DNA of 64,000 nt. Source: a virus. A program made the position numbers and the translations under genes. The notes beneath the pieces are model-generated. The model was not told where the DNA came from, made no database searches, and saw only the letters and a list, made by a program, of their open reading frames with translations. The DNA lies in IMG/VR virus record IMGVR_UViG_3300042308_000967, positions 1 to 64,000 of that record; one strand, given 5' to 3'. Below, one piece after another: positions 13,544 to 20,412 of this stretch (positions within the stretch are counted from its first letter, which is position 1; each line of letters begins with the position of its first letter).

Positions 13544-14263
13544 ATGCCTTTACCAAAGATCTCTACGCCAACACATGAGTTGGAACTACCTTCTACTGGG
13601 CAAACGATTCAGTATCGCCCTTTTCTTGTGCGAGAAGAAAAACTTCTTGTATTAGCACTTGAAAGTGAGAATACCAAAGAAATTACAACAGCAATTAAGA
13701 ACGTTATTAAGAATTGTATTCAAACAAAAGGAGTAAAGGTAGAATCGCTACCTACTTTTGATATTGAGTATCTTTTCCTTAATATTCGCGGTAAATCTGT
13801 TGGAGAAGAGATTGAAGTTAATATTGTTTGTCCAGATGATGGAGAAACTTATGTTCCAGTGAAGATTGATATTGATGAAATTAAAGTGCAAAAAAATGAA
13901 GAGCATACAACTAAAATTCAAGTAGATCAATCTATCGTGATGGAAATGAAGTATCCGTCATTGGATCAATTCATTAAAAATAACTTTGATTTTAATGAAA
14001 ACAATTCAATGGATCAGTCATTTGATCTAGTTGCTTCTTGTGTAGACAAGATTTATAATGAAGAAGAAGTCTGGTCTGCTGCTGATGTAACAAAGAAAGA
14101 ACTGATTGAGTTTTTGGATCAAATGAACTCATCTCAATTCAAACAGATTGAAAAGTTCTTTGAAACAATGCCAAAACTTTCTCATACTGTTAAAGTCAAG
14201 AATCCAAATACTGAAGTTGAAAGTGAAGTTGTGTTGGAGGGTTTGTCCAGTTTTTTCGCATAG
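13544..14263 (+). CDS. 26: baseplate hub assembly protein gp26, frameshift donor
   Basis: The 239-residue zero-frame product matches the T4 gp26 family: TGQTIQYRPFLVREEKLLVLALES (residues 18-41), TFDIEYLFLNIRGKSVGEEIEV (72-93), and a helical C-terminus with DQMNSSQFKQIEKFFETMPKLSHTV. It acts in hub assembly and is not known in the finished virion in quantity. Its last codons contain the slippery heptamer T TTT TTC directly before GCA TAG, and a -1 slip continues into an open frame for 59 more codons. A tube or tape-measure assembly chaperone role is discussed in the findings. Confidence 0.85.
   Translation: MPLPKISTPTHELELPSTGQTIQYRPFLVREEKLLVLALESENTKEITTAIKNVIKNCIQTKGVKVESLPTFDIEYLFLNIRGKSVGEEIEVNIVCPDDGETYVPVKIDIDEIKVQKNEEHTTKIQVDQSIVMEMKYPSLDQFIKNNFDFNENNSMDQSFDLVASCVDKIYNEEEVWSAADVTKKELIEFLDQMNSSQFKQIEKFFETMPKLSHTVKVKNPNTEVESEVVLEGLSSFFA
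14236..14257 (+). promoter_or_regulatory. -1 frameshift signal in gp26
   Basis: The heptamer TTTTTTC (14251-14257) is in the right phase for simultaneous -1 slippage (AGT TTT TTC GCA TAG). An SD-like GGAGGG (14236-14241) ends nine bases upstream, the arrangement that stimulates -1 frameshifting in E. coli dnaX. The zero-frame stop follows two codons later. Confidence 0.75.
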
Positions 14264-14436
14264 GACTTTGTTATATAGATTTGGAAAATTATTACAAACT
14301 TAATTTTTCATTGATGCAATACCATAAATGGAGTTTATGGGAAATTGAAGGACTGATGCCTTGGGAAAGAGATGTTTATGTTTCTTTATTAAAAAATTAC
14401 TTGGAAGAAGAAAAAGCAAAACAACAGCAACAATAG
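14257..14436 (+). CDS. gp26 -1 frameshift extension (gp51-like position), 59 aa
   Basis: In the -1 frame the sequence stays open from the slippery site to TAG at 14434-14436, giving 59 residues (RIGLCYIDLENYYKLNFSLM..., then WEIEGLMPWERDVYVSLLKNYLEEE). The frame has no ATG start or ribosome site before residue 20. The helical segment MPWERDVYVSLLKNYLEEE is typical of tail assembly chaperone C-termini. The fusion with gp26 would be about 297 residues. Tape-measure-like genes follow, as in lambda G/GT. The position matches T4 gene 51. The 3' end is duplicated at 15221-15268. Confidence 0.78.
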   Translation, partial: RIGLCYIDLENYYKLNFSLMQYHKWSLWEIEGLMPWERDVYVSLLKNYLEEEKAKQQQQ

Positions 14437-14451
14437 TAATAATAATTTAAA

Positions 14452-15111
14452 TTAATTAATTTGAATTCTATTTGCAGGATCAATTCCTCTTTTTTTCTGG
14501 TATCTTGTTAATGGTCCCGCAGTGCTTATGAAATTACTTATGGTGCATTTATATTTTTTGCTATTTGTTATATTTGCACCTTTTATTCCGTCTTCTCTCA
14601 TTTGTTCTTTTGTTCTATCAAAATATCCAATTTTTAGATCTTTTACTTTATAACCACCACTTCTTCCATCTAATATTTTTTGGTTTTTATTTCTAGCAAA
14701 AATTCCTTTTTTTAATTTTTTTACTTTTTCTCCGGATTTTTTTCTTGCTTTTTGTTTTTCTTCTTCAGTTATTCCGTATATTCCTTTTTTTAAATTTAGA
14801 CTATTAAATCCATTCTTTCTTTTTGTATCTAGTGAAAAATTTCCACCGCATCCTTCATTCAAACACCAAGGATCATTAAGAACTGGTTTTATCAATCTAT
14901 CCTCTACCTTTCTACATTTTTCATAACCCTCATCAGAGTAATCAAATATCTCTAATATCTGTTTCTTTGGAGTATAAAGTTCCCAACCCCATTTGTTTGT
15001 TTTAGGTGAACCCCAGTACTCTTGATTATAATATTTTTCTTTTTTACTTCCATAGTAATAATACGGAACTTCTTCAAAGGTAATCTTATACGTATAGATA
15101 CATGGTTTCAT
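14452..15111 (-). CDS. GIY-YIG-type homing endonuclease with basic repeats
   Basis: The 219-residue product starts with a divergent GIY-YIG domain: YTYKITFEEVPYYYYGSKKE (residues 6-25), a YWGSPKTN motif, and the catalytic Glu in CRKVEDRLIKP. The C-terminal half has repeated basic motifs (KKGIYG, KKGIFA, KIGYFDRT, about 20-25 residues apart) like the NUMOD3-type DNA-binding repeats of homing enzymes. It lies on the opposite strand between the gp26 frameshift extension and the tape-measure gene, which read rightward, so it is a mobile insertion. Its leader forms a large hairpin with an internal late promoter. Confidence 0.85.
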   Translation of the reverse strand: MKPCIYTYKITFEEVPYYYYGSKKEKYYNQEYWGSPKTNKWGWELYTPKKQILEIFDYSDEGYEKCRKVEDRLIKPVLNDPWCLNEGCGGNFSLDTKRKNGFNSLNLKKGIYGITEEEKQKARKKSGEKVKKLKKGIFARNKNQKILDGRSGGYKVKDLKIGYFDRTKEQMREDGIKGANITNSKKYKCTISNFISTAGPLTRYQKKRGIDPANRIQIN

Positions 15112-15123
15112 AATTCTACTCTA

Positions 15124-15188
15124 GATGTCTGCATTTATATTTATAAAATAGAGGGAATTTCACCCTCTTCCTGAAGTTTGCAGACATC
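15124..15188 (-). promoter_or_regulatory. inverted-repeat leader of the minus-strand endonuclease gene
   Basis: The outer arms GATGTCTGCA (15124-15133) and TGCAGACATC (15179-15188) are a perfect 10-base inverted repeat. In minus-strand order, between the arms lie a terminator-like hairpin AGAGGG/CCCTCT (15150-15168) and a late promoter TATAAATA just before the second arm. The ATG of the endonuclease follows 12 bases after that arm. Confidence 0.78.
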
Positions 15189-15211
15189 CAGGTATCGTTA
15201 TTTATGCTGTT

Positions 15212-15219
15212 GATAAATA
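15212..15219 (+). promoter_or_regulatory. late promoter GATAAATA for the tape-measure genes
   Basis: GATAAATA lies 38 bases before the ATG at 15258, in the inserted segment next to the duplicated frameshift-ORF end. It may compensate for the interruption of the operon. Confidence 0.5.
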
Positions 15220-15220
15220 T

Positions 15221-15268
15221 AATTATCTAGAAGAAGAAAAAGAAAAGCAGCAACAAAATGGGACCTGA
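15221..15268 (+). pseudogene. duplicated 3' end of the gp26 frameshift extension
   Basis: Bases 15221-15268 read NYLEEEKEKQQQNGT then stop, against NYLEEEKAKQQQQ then stop at the true end of the extension (14395-14436). The copy overlaps the ATG of the next gene by 11 bases, which was probably the original arrangement before the endonuclease gene entered. Confidence 0.8.
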
Positions 15269-17339
15269 CGAACTAGACGATCTACTGGCAAGTATTAGAG
15301 CGGAATCTAAAAGAGAATCCGCTTCAACTTTGTATGAAGGAACTGCAGAAGAGGATCTTGTAAACGAAGAAGTAGATGAAAGAGTTTTAACTTTACTTGG
15401 TCTTAATGAAGTTTTTGATATTGATTATGGAACTTATATCTCTCTTTTAAAAGAAAAATTAGTTGCGTCTAGAAATTTTGATAAAAAACTTTCCACTGAA
15501 GAAGATGAGTTATTAGTTGGAGAGTTTAAAAGAGTAAAAGGAAAAGTAGGTAAATTCAAATTAAAAAGAAAGAAAGTTACTTCGGATAATATTGGAGTAA
15601 CTGGTCCTATTCGTGTATCATCAGACAAGTTTTTATTGACTGGAAAGGCAATAGTTCCAGAAACTGCTCCAGCAGAAACTTCTAGTGACATCGTAGATAT
15701 TCAGAAAGCATTAGATAATATTCTAAAAAATCTTTCACTCCAAAATAAAGAAAAGAAAAAGGCGAGTGAAGATGAGAGAAAGAAGAGTGAAGATAGAAGA
15801 AGAAAAAAAAGAGAAGGTGATTTAGAAAAACCGCTTACACAACTAAAGGCACTTGCAAAGAAAATCATTGCACCCGCTCAAGGTATTCTTGATCGTATTT
15901 TCAGGTTTATTAAATTCACTTTACTTGGTTATGCTTTTAATCAGTTAATAAAATGGTTTAATGATCCTAAAAATGCTGACAAAATAAAAGTACTTGGTAG
16001 GTTTTTAAAGGATTGGTGGCCTTCATTACTTTCTGCTTATGTATTATTTGCAACTCCATTTGGTAAGTTCATACGTGGAACTCTTAAAATGTTAAGAGGA
16101 TTTATTCCTCAAATTGCAAGATTCATTGCGGCAAATCCAGTTTTGGTAGCAACTGCGGCAGCAGGAGTAGGTGCTTATGTAATATCTCAAAAAAATGAGT
16201 CATATAGAGAGGAACTTAAAAAAACCCAACCGTCTATTGTCACTCCAAAGGAAACTAAAGAAACTGGAAAGACGCCTGGAGTTCCTCAACTACAGCAAGA
16301 ACAAGTGTTCCAAAGAGGATTGGGTGGAGCATTTAAAGGTGGAGGTATTGTTCCTAGAATTAGAAAGTCTTTCTTTGGTGGTGGTTTAATCCAAAGAGAA
16401 ATAGATGCAAGAGATATTGCATTTGAAGGTGGTGGTGGAATTAGTGATGATACAGGTGTAAGAATTAAAGGTGCAGGTGTTGATACGCAACTGATTGCTG
16501 CAAGACCTGGTGAAGTCGTAATGTCAAAAGAAGCAGTTGACAAATATGGTGCAAACTTCTTCTTGGATCTAAACAAAAAAGGTGGTGGAACTGGTGTTCC
16601 AAGAATGGTAAACAATATTCAACTTGCTGCTGGAGGTGGATTAATTAAGAGAACAATTAAGTCCTATCAAGGTGGTGGAATGATTGGTTCTCTTGGTAGA
16701 GTTCTTCCTGGAACAGGAAGTGTTATGGCACCTAGAGGTATGAATCTTGGATATCAAAATAAGTTTTTAGGAATGAATGTTGGTGGAGTAAAAAATCTAC
16801 CACTCAATCAAACATATTCCCCAGATGCGGTCAAGAGATATAATGCAAATTCAAGTGCTCCAAGTTCTTTAGTTAAATTTGGAACTGGACCCCTTGCAGA
16901 AAGATCTGTAAGTATTCCAAAATCATCTTCATCTAAAAACTCTTTTGCAATACCACCAAGTAGTGTTTCTAGACCACCAATGTCAAAACCACCGACTGGT
17001 CTTAATTTGAATCTGAAGCAAAATATTCAAACCATTCGTGATGCTTCAAACAGACAAGAAAAGATGATGAGAGAACTTGGTGTTGAACCTGATGGATATG
17101 TAAATCTCCGTGGACAACCTCTTAATCTTGGTCCACAAAGTCGCTCTATGGCACCTCCAGGACCTCCTGTAATCTATACAAAGACAACTTATACAGTTCT
17201 TCCACCAATTAAAGCACCAACTAAGACGCCTGCAATTGCAAGAGGTTCTAAAATTCCAGAATTTTCAGTTTCAAGTGTCAATGATACACGCTCAAAAAAT
17301 GCTTCAATTTTAGGAATTGCTGATCTTATAGGAGCATAA
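15258..17339 (+). CDS. tape-measure-like tail protein, 693 aa
   Basis: A long structural protein. Residues 1-200 are charged coiled coil (KKKASEDERKKSEDRRRKKREGDLEK region near 165-190). Residues about 207-225 contain ILDRIFRFIKFTLLGYAFN, shared with the next protein, and 270-310 form a hydrophobic stretch (FIAANPVLVATAAAGVGAYV). The second half is Gly-rich with repeated GGG motifs and then Pro/Ser-rich. Such layouts are seen in tape-measure proteins, which set tail length and enter the host envelope. The T4 counterpart gp29 is not recognisable by sequence, so the call rests on layout and position after the chaperone-like frameshift pair. Confidence 0.6.
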   Translation: MGPDELDDLLASIRAESKRESASTLYEGTAEEDLVNEEVDERVLTLLGLNEVFDIDYGTYISLLKEKLVASRNFDKKLSTEEDELLVGEFKRVKGKVGKFKLKRKKVTSDNIGVTGPIRVSSDKFLLTGKAIVPETAPAETSSDIVDIQKALDNILKNLSLQNKEKKKASEDERKKSEDRRRKKREGDLEKPLTQLKALAKKIIAPAQGILDRIFRFIKFTLLGYAFNQLIKWFNDPKNADKIKVLGRFLKDWWPSLLSAYVLFATPFGKFIRGTLKMLRGFIPQIARFIAANPVLVATAAAGVGAYVISQKNESYREELKKTQPSIVTPKETKETGKTPGVPQLQQEQVFQRGLGGAFKGGGIVPRIRKSFFGGGLIQREIDARDIAFEGGGGISDDTGVRIKGAGVDTQLIAARPGEVVMSKEAVDKYGANFFLDLNKKGGGTGVPRMVNNIQLAAGGGLIKRTIKSYQGGGMIGSLGRVLPGTGSVMAPRGMNLGYQNKFLGMNVGGVKNLPLNQTYSPDAVKRYNANSSAPSSLVKFGTGPLAERSVSIPKSSSSKNSFAIPPSSVSRPPMSKPPTGLNLNLKQNIQTIRDASNRQEKMMRELGVEPDGYVNLRGQPLNLGPQSRSMAPPGPPVIYTKTTYTVLPPIKAPTKTPAIARGSKIPEFSVSSVNDTRSKNASILGIADLIGA

Positions 17340-17343
17340 TAAG

Positions 17344-20300
17344 ATGGCAACGATAGATTCTAGAAAACTATTACCATCAAGCACTAAAGGTAGTGCGATT
17401 GATAAACCAAAGTTTCTTGTTCCTATTAAAAATATTTCCACTAAAAAAATTAGTGGATCTGATTTAAAACCAATTGATAAAAAAACAGAAACTTCTGGAT
17501 CTCTTGTTGTTTTAAAGAAAAAGATTATCAAACTTGATAGTCTAATTCAAAATAATCTACTGATAGACCAAAAAGAAAGAACAAGAAAAAGAAAAGAAGA
17601 GGAAAGATCAAAGGTAGAAAAAAGAGAAGCAGATCTTGAAAAAGGAGTAAAGAAAAATAATGTAAGAATAAATTTAATTTCATCTATTCCTGGACAAAGT
17701 ATTCTTGATAAAATTAATCGTTTTATTGGATTTACTTTACTTGGTTATTTGTTCAACAAGTATGGAGAACTTCTTCCAAAACTTATGGAGTTTGGAAAGG
17801 TTCTAAAACCAGTTGCAGAGTTTGTTGAAAGTTTTGCTAAAAATCTTCTTAAAGGTGTAATTGATTTTGTTGAATTTGGTTATAAGGCATACGATAAGAC
17901 AAGAGATTTTGTTAAACAGATAGGCGGAGAAGGAGCACAAAAAACATTTGATGAGTTTTCAAAGCAGTTAAATCTTCTTTTGAATGGAGCTATAGCAGCT
18001 TCAATGTTGATTGCAAGTAGTAAACCCAAACCTACATCTACTGGTAGTGGTTCTTTCGGTGCAGGATACGCTTCAGGATATGCTGCTGGACTTTCTGCTA
18101 GTCGTGGAGGTAGACCTGGAGCTGGATTTAGAGATCCATCAAGATATCGTTCTCCTGGACAAGCAAGATCTGGCGGATTTGATCTGGAACAAACTAGAAG
18201 AATAAACACTCAAGCAAATAGTGCAGCACCAACTGGCCCAAAAGGACCTTTAGATAGGATTAGTCGTGGTATTAGAGGAGCGGGAGCACAACTTGAAACT
18301 GGAACTTTATTTAAAAGAGGTGCAGGACTTCAAAAATCTTTATATAATGCTCCAGGAAAAATAAAAAGTATATCATCAAAACTTGGTGGATTTGGTGGAA
18401 AGATATTTGGCAGAATTCCAATTATTGGTGGATTAATTAATTTTGCAATTAGTCTTGCTTTAGGTGAAGATCCCGGAAGAGCAGCGGCTAAAGCGGTTGG
18501 TTCTACTGCTGGCGCTGCCTTGGGGACATTTATTCCTGTTCCTGGTGTTGGAACTATTCTTGGTGGTATTCTTGGTGATATTGCCGGTGGAGCATTATAT
18601 GATACTCTAATTGGCAATAAACAAAAACCACAAGGTCGGGCAGAAGGTGGACAAGTAACTAGAGGCGGTCAATCGACAGTAGCACCTTCAAGAAGGATAA
18701 AAAAACCGGTAAGAAAAGCACCACCAAGAATTCAACCACAAAAAACACAACCAGGAAAAGATGTTGGTGGCAAATTAAAGATTGAAGAACTTTATGGTAA
18801 GGACGAACCAGGAAAGAGAAGTGCATTAAGAGCACTCCGAAAGAGTTCTGATGATGTTAAGAGGATGAAATCCATTAACGGACTTGCTGGTTCAATGTTT
18901 GGTGCTGGTATTGATATGGCACTTGGACAAAAGCCAGATAAAAATCTTTCAAAAAATCTTGGAAATATTTTTGGATCTGTGATTGCTTCTGCAGTTGATA
19001 TGGAACTTAATAACTCTCTTGGTGATATTTCTAAAACTATTGCGATGGCAAATGGTGGCGTAGTTCCTTCACGAGAGATTGGAAAGAGTTTGAGTATTGG
19101 TGAAAGAATAGGTAGTTTTATTTCAAGAGCACTTGCAGTTTCTATTGAGAGTTCCGCTTCAAAGATACTTCAGAATTTACGTAATGAAATGAATTTGGAA
19201 GGTGGTGCTCCTGGCACAACACCTTCCGACGGTGGACCTGGTGGTGGCGGTGGAGAAATTCCAGGCGATGCTCCACCAGAAGTTAAGGCAATGCTTGAAG
19301 CAATTTCTGCTGGGGAAGGAAGTTGGGATTCTGTAAATCCATCAACAACAGTACCTGGATTAAGTAATATGACAATTGCTGATGCTCGTAAGGCTGCAAT
19401 AGCAAAAGGTGTGGATCAACTTGGCGGATCTGGTGCGATGGGTAAGTGGCAGCAAATGCCGGCATTTATTCTTGAAAGAGCAAGAGATGTGGGGTTAGAT
19501 CCAAATAAAGATAAATTTAATCCAGAAAATCAAACCAAAATTGCTAGAATGTTGATGGCATCCGTTTATCCCGGAGGAGAATCACAATTAGTTAAAGATG
19601 CTCAGAGAGATCCAATGTCTGCTGCAGCAAAGTTGAGAGGAACATGGCCTTCTTTGCCTGGAGGAAGTCAAGCAAATACTAAAGAGAAGAAATTTAGAGA
19701 AAATTTTGCAAAAGCTTTGCAATCATACAAGTCTCCAAGTGCAGTTCTAACAAAAGGTTCTTTTGCATCAGTTCTTCCAAGAGGAAATCCACAATTTACT
19801 AGTGGTTTTGGTTCTAGATGGGGAAGAAACCATCAAGGTATTGATATTGGTGTTGATGCAAATTCTCCAGTTACTGCTCTACAGGATGGAAAGGTAGTTG
19901 CAATTTATAAAAACTTTGGAGGACATGGAGTAGGAATTGTTGTTCAGCATTCTGATGGAACTAAAATCGTTTATGGACACGTAAATGCAAATGTAAGAGA
20001 GGGAGATACAGTTAAAAAGGGACAAACAATAGCAACAGTTAAAGGTTGGTTTAACGCATATGGAAATAAAGATAATACGCACTTGCACCTAGAAAGATAT
20101 GTTGGTGGAGCTGCTACAGATCCAACAGGATATTTAAATTCACTATCTAAATCACAACCAGATACTCGTCCAGCATCCTCACCACCTTCTCAGGTTAGAA
20201 CTAAATTAACTAGAAGTAATCAGTGGGACCCTTCTAAGTCTGGACTTAAGTTTAATGAAAAAACTGGAATGTATGAAAAAGCATCACTTGCACCATCACA

Positions 20301-20412
20301 ATCCTCATCAGTTGCCTCTTTAAATAAATCTGGCATTTTAAAGGAGGATACATCCACAATGATTTACAATAATAATGCAGTTGCTATTCTTCCAATTGAA
20401 GTTACTGCGTAA
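17344..20412 (+). CDS. tail protein with muramidase-like and M23 peptidase domains, 1022 aa
   Basis: The N-terminus is a paralogue of the previous protein (ILDKINRFIGFTLLGYLFN at about residues 119-137, after a charged coiled coil). A hydrophobic Gly-rich region spans about 350-420. Residues about 645-785 resemble a phage muramidase/transglycosylase, with Glu in SAGEGSWD and the segment GSGAMGKWQQMPAFI. Residues about 815-920 are a LytM/M23 endopeptidase with zinc ligands in NHQGIDIG and HLHLER. The enzymes would cut host peptidoglycan during DNA entry. It takes the place of T4 gp5 lysozyme, or is a tape measure with lytic domains. Confidence 0.82.
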   Translation: MATIDSRKLLPSSTKGSAIDKPKFLVPIKNISTKKISGSDLKPIDKKTETSGSLVVLKKKIIKLDSLIQNNLLIDQKERTRKRKEEERSKVEKREADLEKGVKKNNVRINLISSIPGQSILDKINRFIGFTLLGYLFNKYGELLPKLMEFGKVLKPVAEFVESFAKNLLKGVIDFVEFGYKAYDKTRDFVKQIGGEGAQKTFDEFSKQLNLLLNGAIAASMLIASSKPKPTSTGSGSFGAGYASGYAAGLSASRGGRPGAGFRDPSRYRSPGQARSGGFDLEQTRRINTQANSAAPTGPKGPLDRISRGIRGAGAQLETGTLFKRGAGLQKSLYNAPGKIKSISSKLGGFGGKIFGRIPIIGGLINFAISLALGEDPGRAAAKAVGSTAGAALGTFIPVPGVGTILGGILGDIAGGALYDTLIGNKQKPQGRAEGGQVTRGGQSTVAPSRRIKKPVRKAPPRIQPQKTQPGKDVGGKLKIEELYGKDEPGKRSALRALRKSSDDVKRMKSINGLAGSMFGAGIDMALGQKPDKNLSKNLGNIFGSVIASAVDMELNNSLGDISKTIAMANGGVVPSREIGKSLSIGERIGSFISRALAVSIESSASKILQNLRNEMNLEGGAPGTTPSDGGPGGGGGEIPGDAPPEVKAMLEAISAGEGSWDSVNPSTTVPGLSNMTIADARKAAIAKGVDQLGGSGAMGKWQQMPAFILERARDVGLDPNKDKFNPENQTKIARMLMASVYPGGESQLVKDAQRDPMSAAAKLRGTWPSLPGGSQANTKEKKFRENFAKALQSYKSPSAVLTKGSFASVLPRGNPQFTSGFGSRWGRNHQGIDIGVDANSPVTALQDGKVVAIYKNFGGHGVGIVVQHSDGTKIVYGHVNANVREGDTVKKGQTIATVKGWFNAYGNKDNTHLHLERYVGGAATDPTGYLNSLSKSQPDTRPASSPPSQVRTKLTRSNQWDPSKSGLKFNEKTGMYEKASLAPSQSSSVASLNKSGILKEDTSTMIYNNNAVAILPIEVTA

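Follow-up and report, generated by a model that had tools for sequence, protein, structure and literature searches.

The gene gp26 of the phage analysed here, a relative of T4 and of marine cyanobacterial phages, and the open frame that follows it in the -1 phase very probably constitute one tail-assembly-chaperone gene with a programmed -1 ribosomal frameshift; we infer the slippage, its rate and the chaperone role from sequence comparison. The window, i.e. the whole stretch of 64,000 nucleotides that was analysed, corresponds to positions 1 to 64,000 of the IMG/VR record IMGVR_UViG_3300042308_000967, a 72.7 kb virus record that is itself a fragment. A frameshift fusing gp26 to the -1 frame had been proposed in a preliminary description made from the letters of the window, and the comparison with related phages supports this proposal.

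Structure of the gp26 locus

The region comprises the following features:
13544-14263, + strand: gp26, predicted chaperone short form of 239 aa (PF12322 T4_baseplate, E 4e-77; phrog_150 baseplate hub, E 4e-82)
14236-14241, + strand: SD-like element GGAGGG, probable 5' stimulator, 3' edge 9 nt before the heptamer
14242-14250, + strand: spacer of 9 nt between GGAGGG and the heptamer
14251-14257, + strand: slippery heptamer T TTT TTC in the phase of gp26
14257-14436, + strand: -1 frame of 59 codons, gp51-like C-terminal domain of the predicted 297-aa long form (phrog_634 baseplate hub assembly catalyst, E 1e-26)
14261-14263, + strand: TAG, 0-frame stop of the short form
14314-14316, + strand: earliest ATG in phase with the -1 frame, 20 codons from its start, within the conserved core

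The 3' end of gp26 reads GGAGGG TTTGTCCAG T TTT TTC GCA TAG and is divided into the codons AGT TTT TTC GCA TAG. The position and phase of the heptamer given in the preliminary description were confirmed to the base, as were the GGAGGG ending nine bases upstream and the length of the -1 frame, which is free of stops from 14257 to 14433 and ends with TAG at 14434-14436. Out of 4000 dinucleotide shuffles, 17 retained 59 open codons. The phrog_150 profile (282 positions) takes in the -1 frame as well, as its C-terminal end.

The earlier statement that neither an ATG nor a ribosome site is situated near the start of the -1 frame also holds. The ATG at 14314 is not plausible as an independent start, its anti-SD pairing of +2.6 kcal/mol meaning that SD-like pairing is absent, and the earliest start-like codon, TTG at 14281, pairs weakly (-3.0 kcal/mol). 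Upstream of the heptamer a value of -9.8 kcal/mol was calculated.

Conservation of the heptamer and of the -1 frame

Related loci were collected from viral contigs with close and more distant queries and from annotated phages, which resulted in 255 loci that were grouped at 80% nucleotide identity into 77 clusters; a KVP40-type query against the viral contigs contributed two loci only. An in-phase T TTT TTN two or three codons ahead of the stop was found in 252 of these loci and in 74 of the 77 clusters, where it is represented by TTTTTTC (53), TTTTTTA (12), TTTTTTT (8) and TTTTTTG (1). The 80 viral contigs near the window together with S-SM2 and SynMITS9220M01 have T TTT TTC without exception, with GARGG ending 9 nt before it. 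In the rest of the gp26 genes, which amounts to 17,865 codon positions, T TTT TTN was counted eight times, and T TTT TTC encodes none of the 80 other Phe-Phe pairs. The last base of the heptamer drifts among C, A, T and G, including changes from Phe to Leu, while the six Ts are constant; in these alignments it is the DNA run rather than the amino acid that is conserved. The heptamer was found in Kyanoviridae, in Aeromonas PX29 and Vibrio XZ1 (Straboviridae), in Stenotrophomonas BUCT608 and in Variovorax V45v66, and Melnitz-3 and Acinetobacter SH-Ab have T TTT TTT at the site. Hence, the alignment proposed in the preliminary description revealed that both the heptamer and the open -1 frame are conserved in T4-like cyanophages and also outside this group.

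The -1 frame is evidently under purifying selection, as judged from a dN/dS of 0.073 over 48 codons (62 distinct sequences from the clade of the window), with the pattern reversed in the other two frames. The R-I-A/G-L/M codons around and just behind the gp26 stop are kept as amino acids.

Loss of the heptamer in relatives that keep both frames, named earlier as an observation that would speak against frameshifting, is generally absent; a gp51-like -1 frame lacking the T6 run was encountered among the loci found only in L086 and L088, two distant Ackermann-like records. In L088 (Salmonella SFP10, 2557-2592) the sequence is GAG ATT TTC ATT TAA without the T6 heptamer, and the -1 frame was left unannotated; L086 (Vibrio K364, 2488-2523) reads ACG CTT TTT GCG TAATG, likewise without the heptamer. 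At these two loci the -1 frame may be reached through a slippery site of four bases or through reinitiation. One Streptococcus phage record has neither the heptamer nor a gp51-like -1 frame.

Putative stimulatory elements

Anti-SD pairing before the heptamer has a family median of -6.0 kcal/mol, with 92% of the values at -4 or better. The pairing is 1.2 kcal/mol stronger than predicted from synonymous recoding and exceeds the prediction in 55 of 73 clusters (Wilcoxon p 1.6e-6, uncorrected for relatedness). On the 3' side, the RNA folding z of the relatives has a mean of -2.1 at +3 nt from the heptamer and ranges from -0.1 to -0.7 from +20 nt onward. A 5-bp hairpin behind the heptamer in the clade of the window shows compensatory changes that were equalled in none of 500 shuffles. 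The window itself does not have this 3' hairpin (z about +0.4), hence its shift rate may differ from that of its relatives.

Strong 3' hairpins approximately 5-10 nt behind the heptamer were also observed in L174, L178, L179, L235-L254 and L090-type loci, where the sequences are unrelated and the register varies by clade. The occurrence of unrelated hairpins in different clades suggests that the 3' stimulator has been re-invented repeatedly.

Alternative explanations

The -1 frame could instead be a separate short gene gp51 with its own start or one that is translated by termination-reinitiation behind the gp26 stop, an option that we regard as improbable. Many relatives do carry an ATG 2-15 nt past the stop and are annotated accordingly, and some distant relatives show a TAATG-type overlap. 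However, no ATG is situated just behind the gp26 stop in the window, L010 and L049, and 31 of 72 clusters have none within the initial 14 codons of that frame. Where ATGs exist they lack an SD, the family median of anti-SD pairing at the first ATG being +0.4 kcal/mol versus -6.0 at the heptamer. Moreover, a separate gene would leave unexplained the T6 run, the -1-frame codons ahead of the ATG and the fused gp51 of T4.

Slippage of the RNA polymerase on the T6 run, which would add a U and give rise to the fusion from an altered mRNA, has an even smaller likelihood in our judgement; it is in line with the conserved T6-T7 run and would yield an identical fusion protein, but the run length holds at 6-7 and the run mostly ends with C or A, and polymerase slippage would give no reason for an SD-like element and a 3' hairpin placed at ribosomal distances. 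That chance or codon bias produced the T run together with the open frame behind it has a negligible probability. The genome is AT-rich, and in-phase T TTT TTN occurs five times per 18,570 codon positions in window ORFs of at least 120 aa; however, only the gp26 copy is near a stop, the family keeps the motif at one position, purifying selection acts on the -1 frame, and the heptamer is absent where a separate long gene exists. A chance origin of heptamer and -1 frame is refuted by the conservation counts.

Proposed mechanism and function

According to the programmed frameshift that we favour, the majority of ribosomes would terminate at the TAG at 14261 and release the 239-aa short form, while a minority, held by pairing of the 16S rRNA with GGAGGG, would slip on T TTT TTC from TTT TTC to TTT TTT and continue to the 297-aa long form bearing the gp51 domain. 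The SD-like element would act as the 5' stimulator, to which most relatives would add the 3' hairpin. Both forms are probably tail-assembly chaperones, on the analogy of lambda G/GT (PMC5009743). By this analogy, the part common to both forms would coat the tape measure, the additional gp51 domain would recruit tail-tube subunits, and both forms would depart before the virion is completed.

The gp26 structure was predicted with an AF2 pLDDT of 87. A Foldseek search of this model against the PDB gave the HK97 chaperone 2ob9 the top probability among the matches listed (0.60; E = 1.8; TM by target 0.43-0.49), which is weakly suggestive of a chaperone fold, the E-value not being significant, while the gp26 profile had no meaningful match among PDB sequences, HK97 chaperone included.

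Frameshifting before the tape measure is standard for the chaperones of long-tailed phages, and lambda G/GT and HK97-type chaperones use heptamers other than that of the window. In E. coli dnaX, an SD-like element about 10 nt upstream and a downstream stem-loop accompany the heptamer A AAA AAG. The window shares with dnaX the SD-like element, whereas a stem-loop directly behind the heptamer is absent. As for the lambda G/GT and HK97-type systems (Xu, Hendrix, Duda 2004), gp26 matches the HK97 chaperone weakly in fold, and the sequence search revealed no similarity between the two. The chaperone frameshift of Vandenendeviridae and Andersonviridae likewise involves a poly-T site, and the C-terminal part is listed there as a hypothetical gene of its own, but it uses a GTTTTT motif and belongs to phage families other than that of the window (PMC12846349).

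Probable frameshifting and gene duplication in T4-like phages

The chaperones gp26 and gp51 of T4-like phages belong to the same protein family and have the same short and long forms as those of the window phage; T4 has two divergent genes, whereas the window phage has one gene with a slippery site. PF12322 takes in both T4 gp26 and T4 gp51. T4 gp51 (249 aa) is matched over its whole length by the gp26 family and in its C-terminal part by phrog_634, and it aligns over the junction, while T4 gp26 (208 aa) terminates shortly behind the position of the heptamer. On these alignments, the -1-frame domain corresponds to the C-terminal portion of T4 gp51, and T4 gp51 is a pre-fused long form encoded by one of two separate divergent genes. 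The earlier suggestion that the gp26/gp51 pair is a frameshifted chaperone pair thus gains comparative support for the window phage and does not apply to T4 itself.

The T4 genome contains two full genes of the gp26/gp51 family. The complete genomes of the heptamer-bearing phages S-SM2, P-HM1, P-SSM4, PX29, Melnitz-3, S-SZBM1 and SynMITS9220M01 have a single N-terminal copy, with the C-terminal piece detected alongside in most of them, and a search of the 72.7-kb record, as a fragment of its genome, revealed no separate long-form gene. All eight phages with a separate long gp51 of about 250 aa lack the heptamer (T4, S16, vB_EcoM_005, fHyAci03, Ac42, KFS-EC, AS-gz and L9-6), and T4, S16 and vB_EcoM_005 have TTC TTT at its position. 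Hence, frameshifting and duplication with fusion appear to be alternatives for one protein pair. Related phages can be used to compare, in nature, frameshift and gene duplication as routes to the same proteins, and the shift rate and its stimulators become testable.

Cyanophage and marine vibriophage gp51 has been reported to lack the first approximately 200 residues of T4 gp51 (Sullivan et al. 2010, PMC3037559). The frameshift would explain this puzzle, because the missing N-terminal part corresponds to gp26 and gp51 of these phages would not be truncated. All 11 annotated heptamer-bearing records that were inspected give the -1 frame its own CDS instead of marking a joined gene, hence these phages can be re-annotated.

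The principle of frameshifting in T4-like chaperones is already published according to passages in two papers: one attributes the poly-T slippery sequences of T4-like TAC genes to Vladimirov, Gautam, Davidson 2022 (Virology 566:9-15) (PMC12846349), and the other, citing the same study, mentions a short copy and a fused long copy in some T4-like phages (PMC10885494). As far as these passages go, the mechanism itself is therefore of a known kind. Our search found no earlier open-access description of the gp26/gp51 frameshift in cyanophages; within the literature searched, the explanation of the truncated gp51, the stimulators and the cassette described below appear to be additions.

A probable replacement cassette at the slippery site

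Three further features are situated behind the heptamer:
14258-15220, + strand: apparent replacement cassette with substitute -1-frame domain, spacer and putative homing endonuclease gene; identity breaks versus L001 and L010
14452-15111, - strand: putative GIY-YIG-like homing endonuclease of 219 aa, YxYK..YYYYG motif in all 7 aligned sequences
15221-15268, + strand: leftover 3' end of an earlier gp51 (NYLEEEKEKQQQNGT*), overlapping the start of the next gene

The locus of the window is a mosaic. Its identity to L001 is 99-100% within gp26 and 98.6% from 15221 onward, while for the -1-frame domain the identity falls to 78% with L001 and reaches 97.6% with L010 at the nucleotide level; the gp26 of L010 is mostly 78-86% identical to that of the window. 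Among the loci found, the adjoining putative endonuclease recurs in L010 alone (97% identical), and both loci carry a remnant of the former gp51 3' end behind the endonuclease gene. Since domain and endonuclease are common to the window and L010 on different gp26 backgrounds, the cassette appears to have been transferred from phage to phage, its left border coinciding with the slippery site, which suggests that the gp51 domain is exchangeable provided that the -1 frame is kept. The window would be devoid of the hairpin and ATGs of its relatives because the cassette replaced 14258-15220. L049 likewise lacks the ATGs but carries no endonuclease, hence ATGs were also lost by another route. We lean slightly towards the view that a mobile cassette with a putative endonuclease swapped the frameshift-encoded half of an essential chaperone, with expression of the complete substitute domain depending wholly on the resident slippery site and the resident 3' stimulatory hairpin and ATGs being removed in passing.

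The putative endonuclease had no match in Pfam, PHROGs and NCBIfam, its GIY-YIG motif was recognised by eye, and it contains repeated K-x-G-I motifs. Relatives with 45-60% identity exist in other cyanophages, situated away from gp26 in both records inspected (S-SRM01 and B23). No homing cassette that replaces the end of a gene turned up in the literature search.

Downstream genes

Two genes follow the gp26 locus:
15258-17339, + strand: weak tape-measure candidate (phrog_35029, E 2e-45, function unassigned; tape-measure PHROGs at E 0.007 or worse)
17344-20412, + strand: second downstream gene with M23 peptidase domain (PF01551, E 4e-19)

Both had been described as tape-measure-like, and they are kept here as weakly supported candidates, the tape-measure PHROG matches of the second gene arising mainly through its M23 peptidase domain. 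The two adjacent genes have similar coiled and membrane-like N-terminal parts, and both match phrog_35997.
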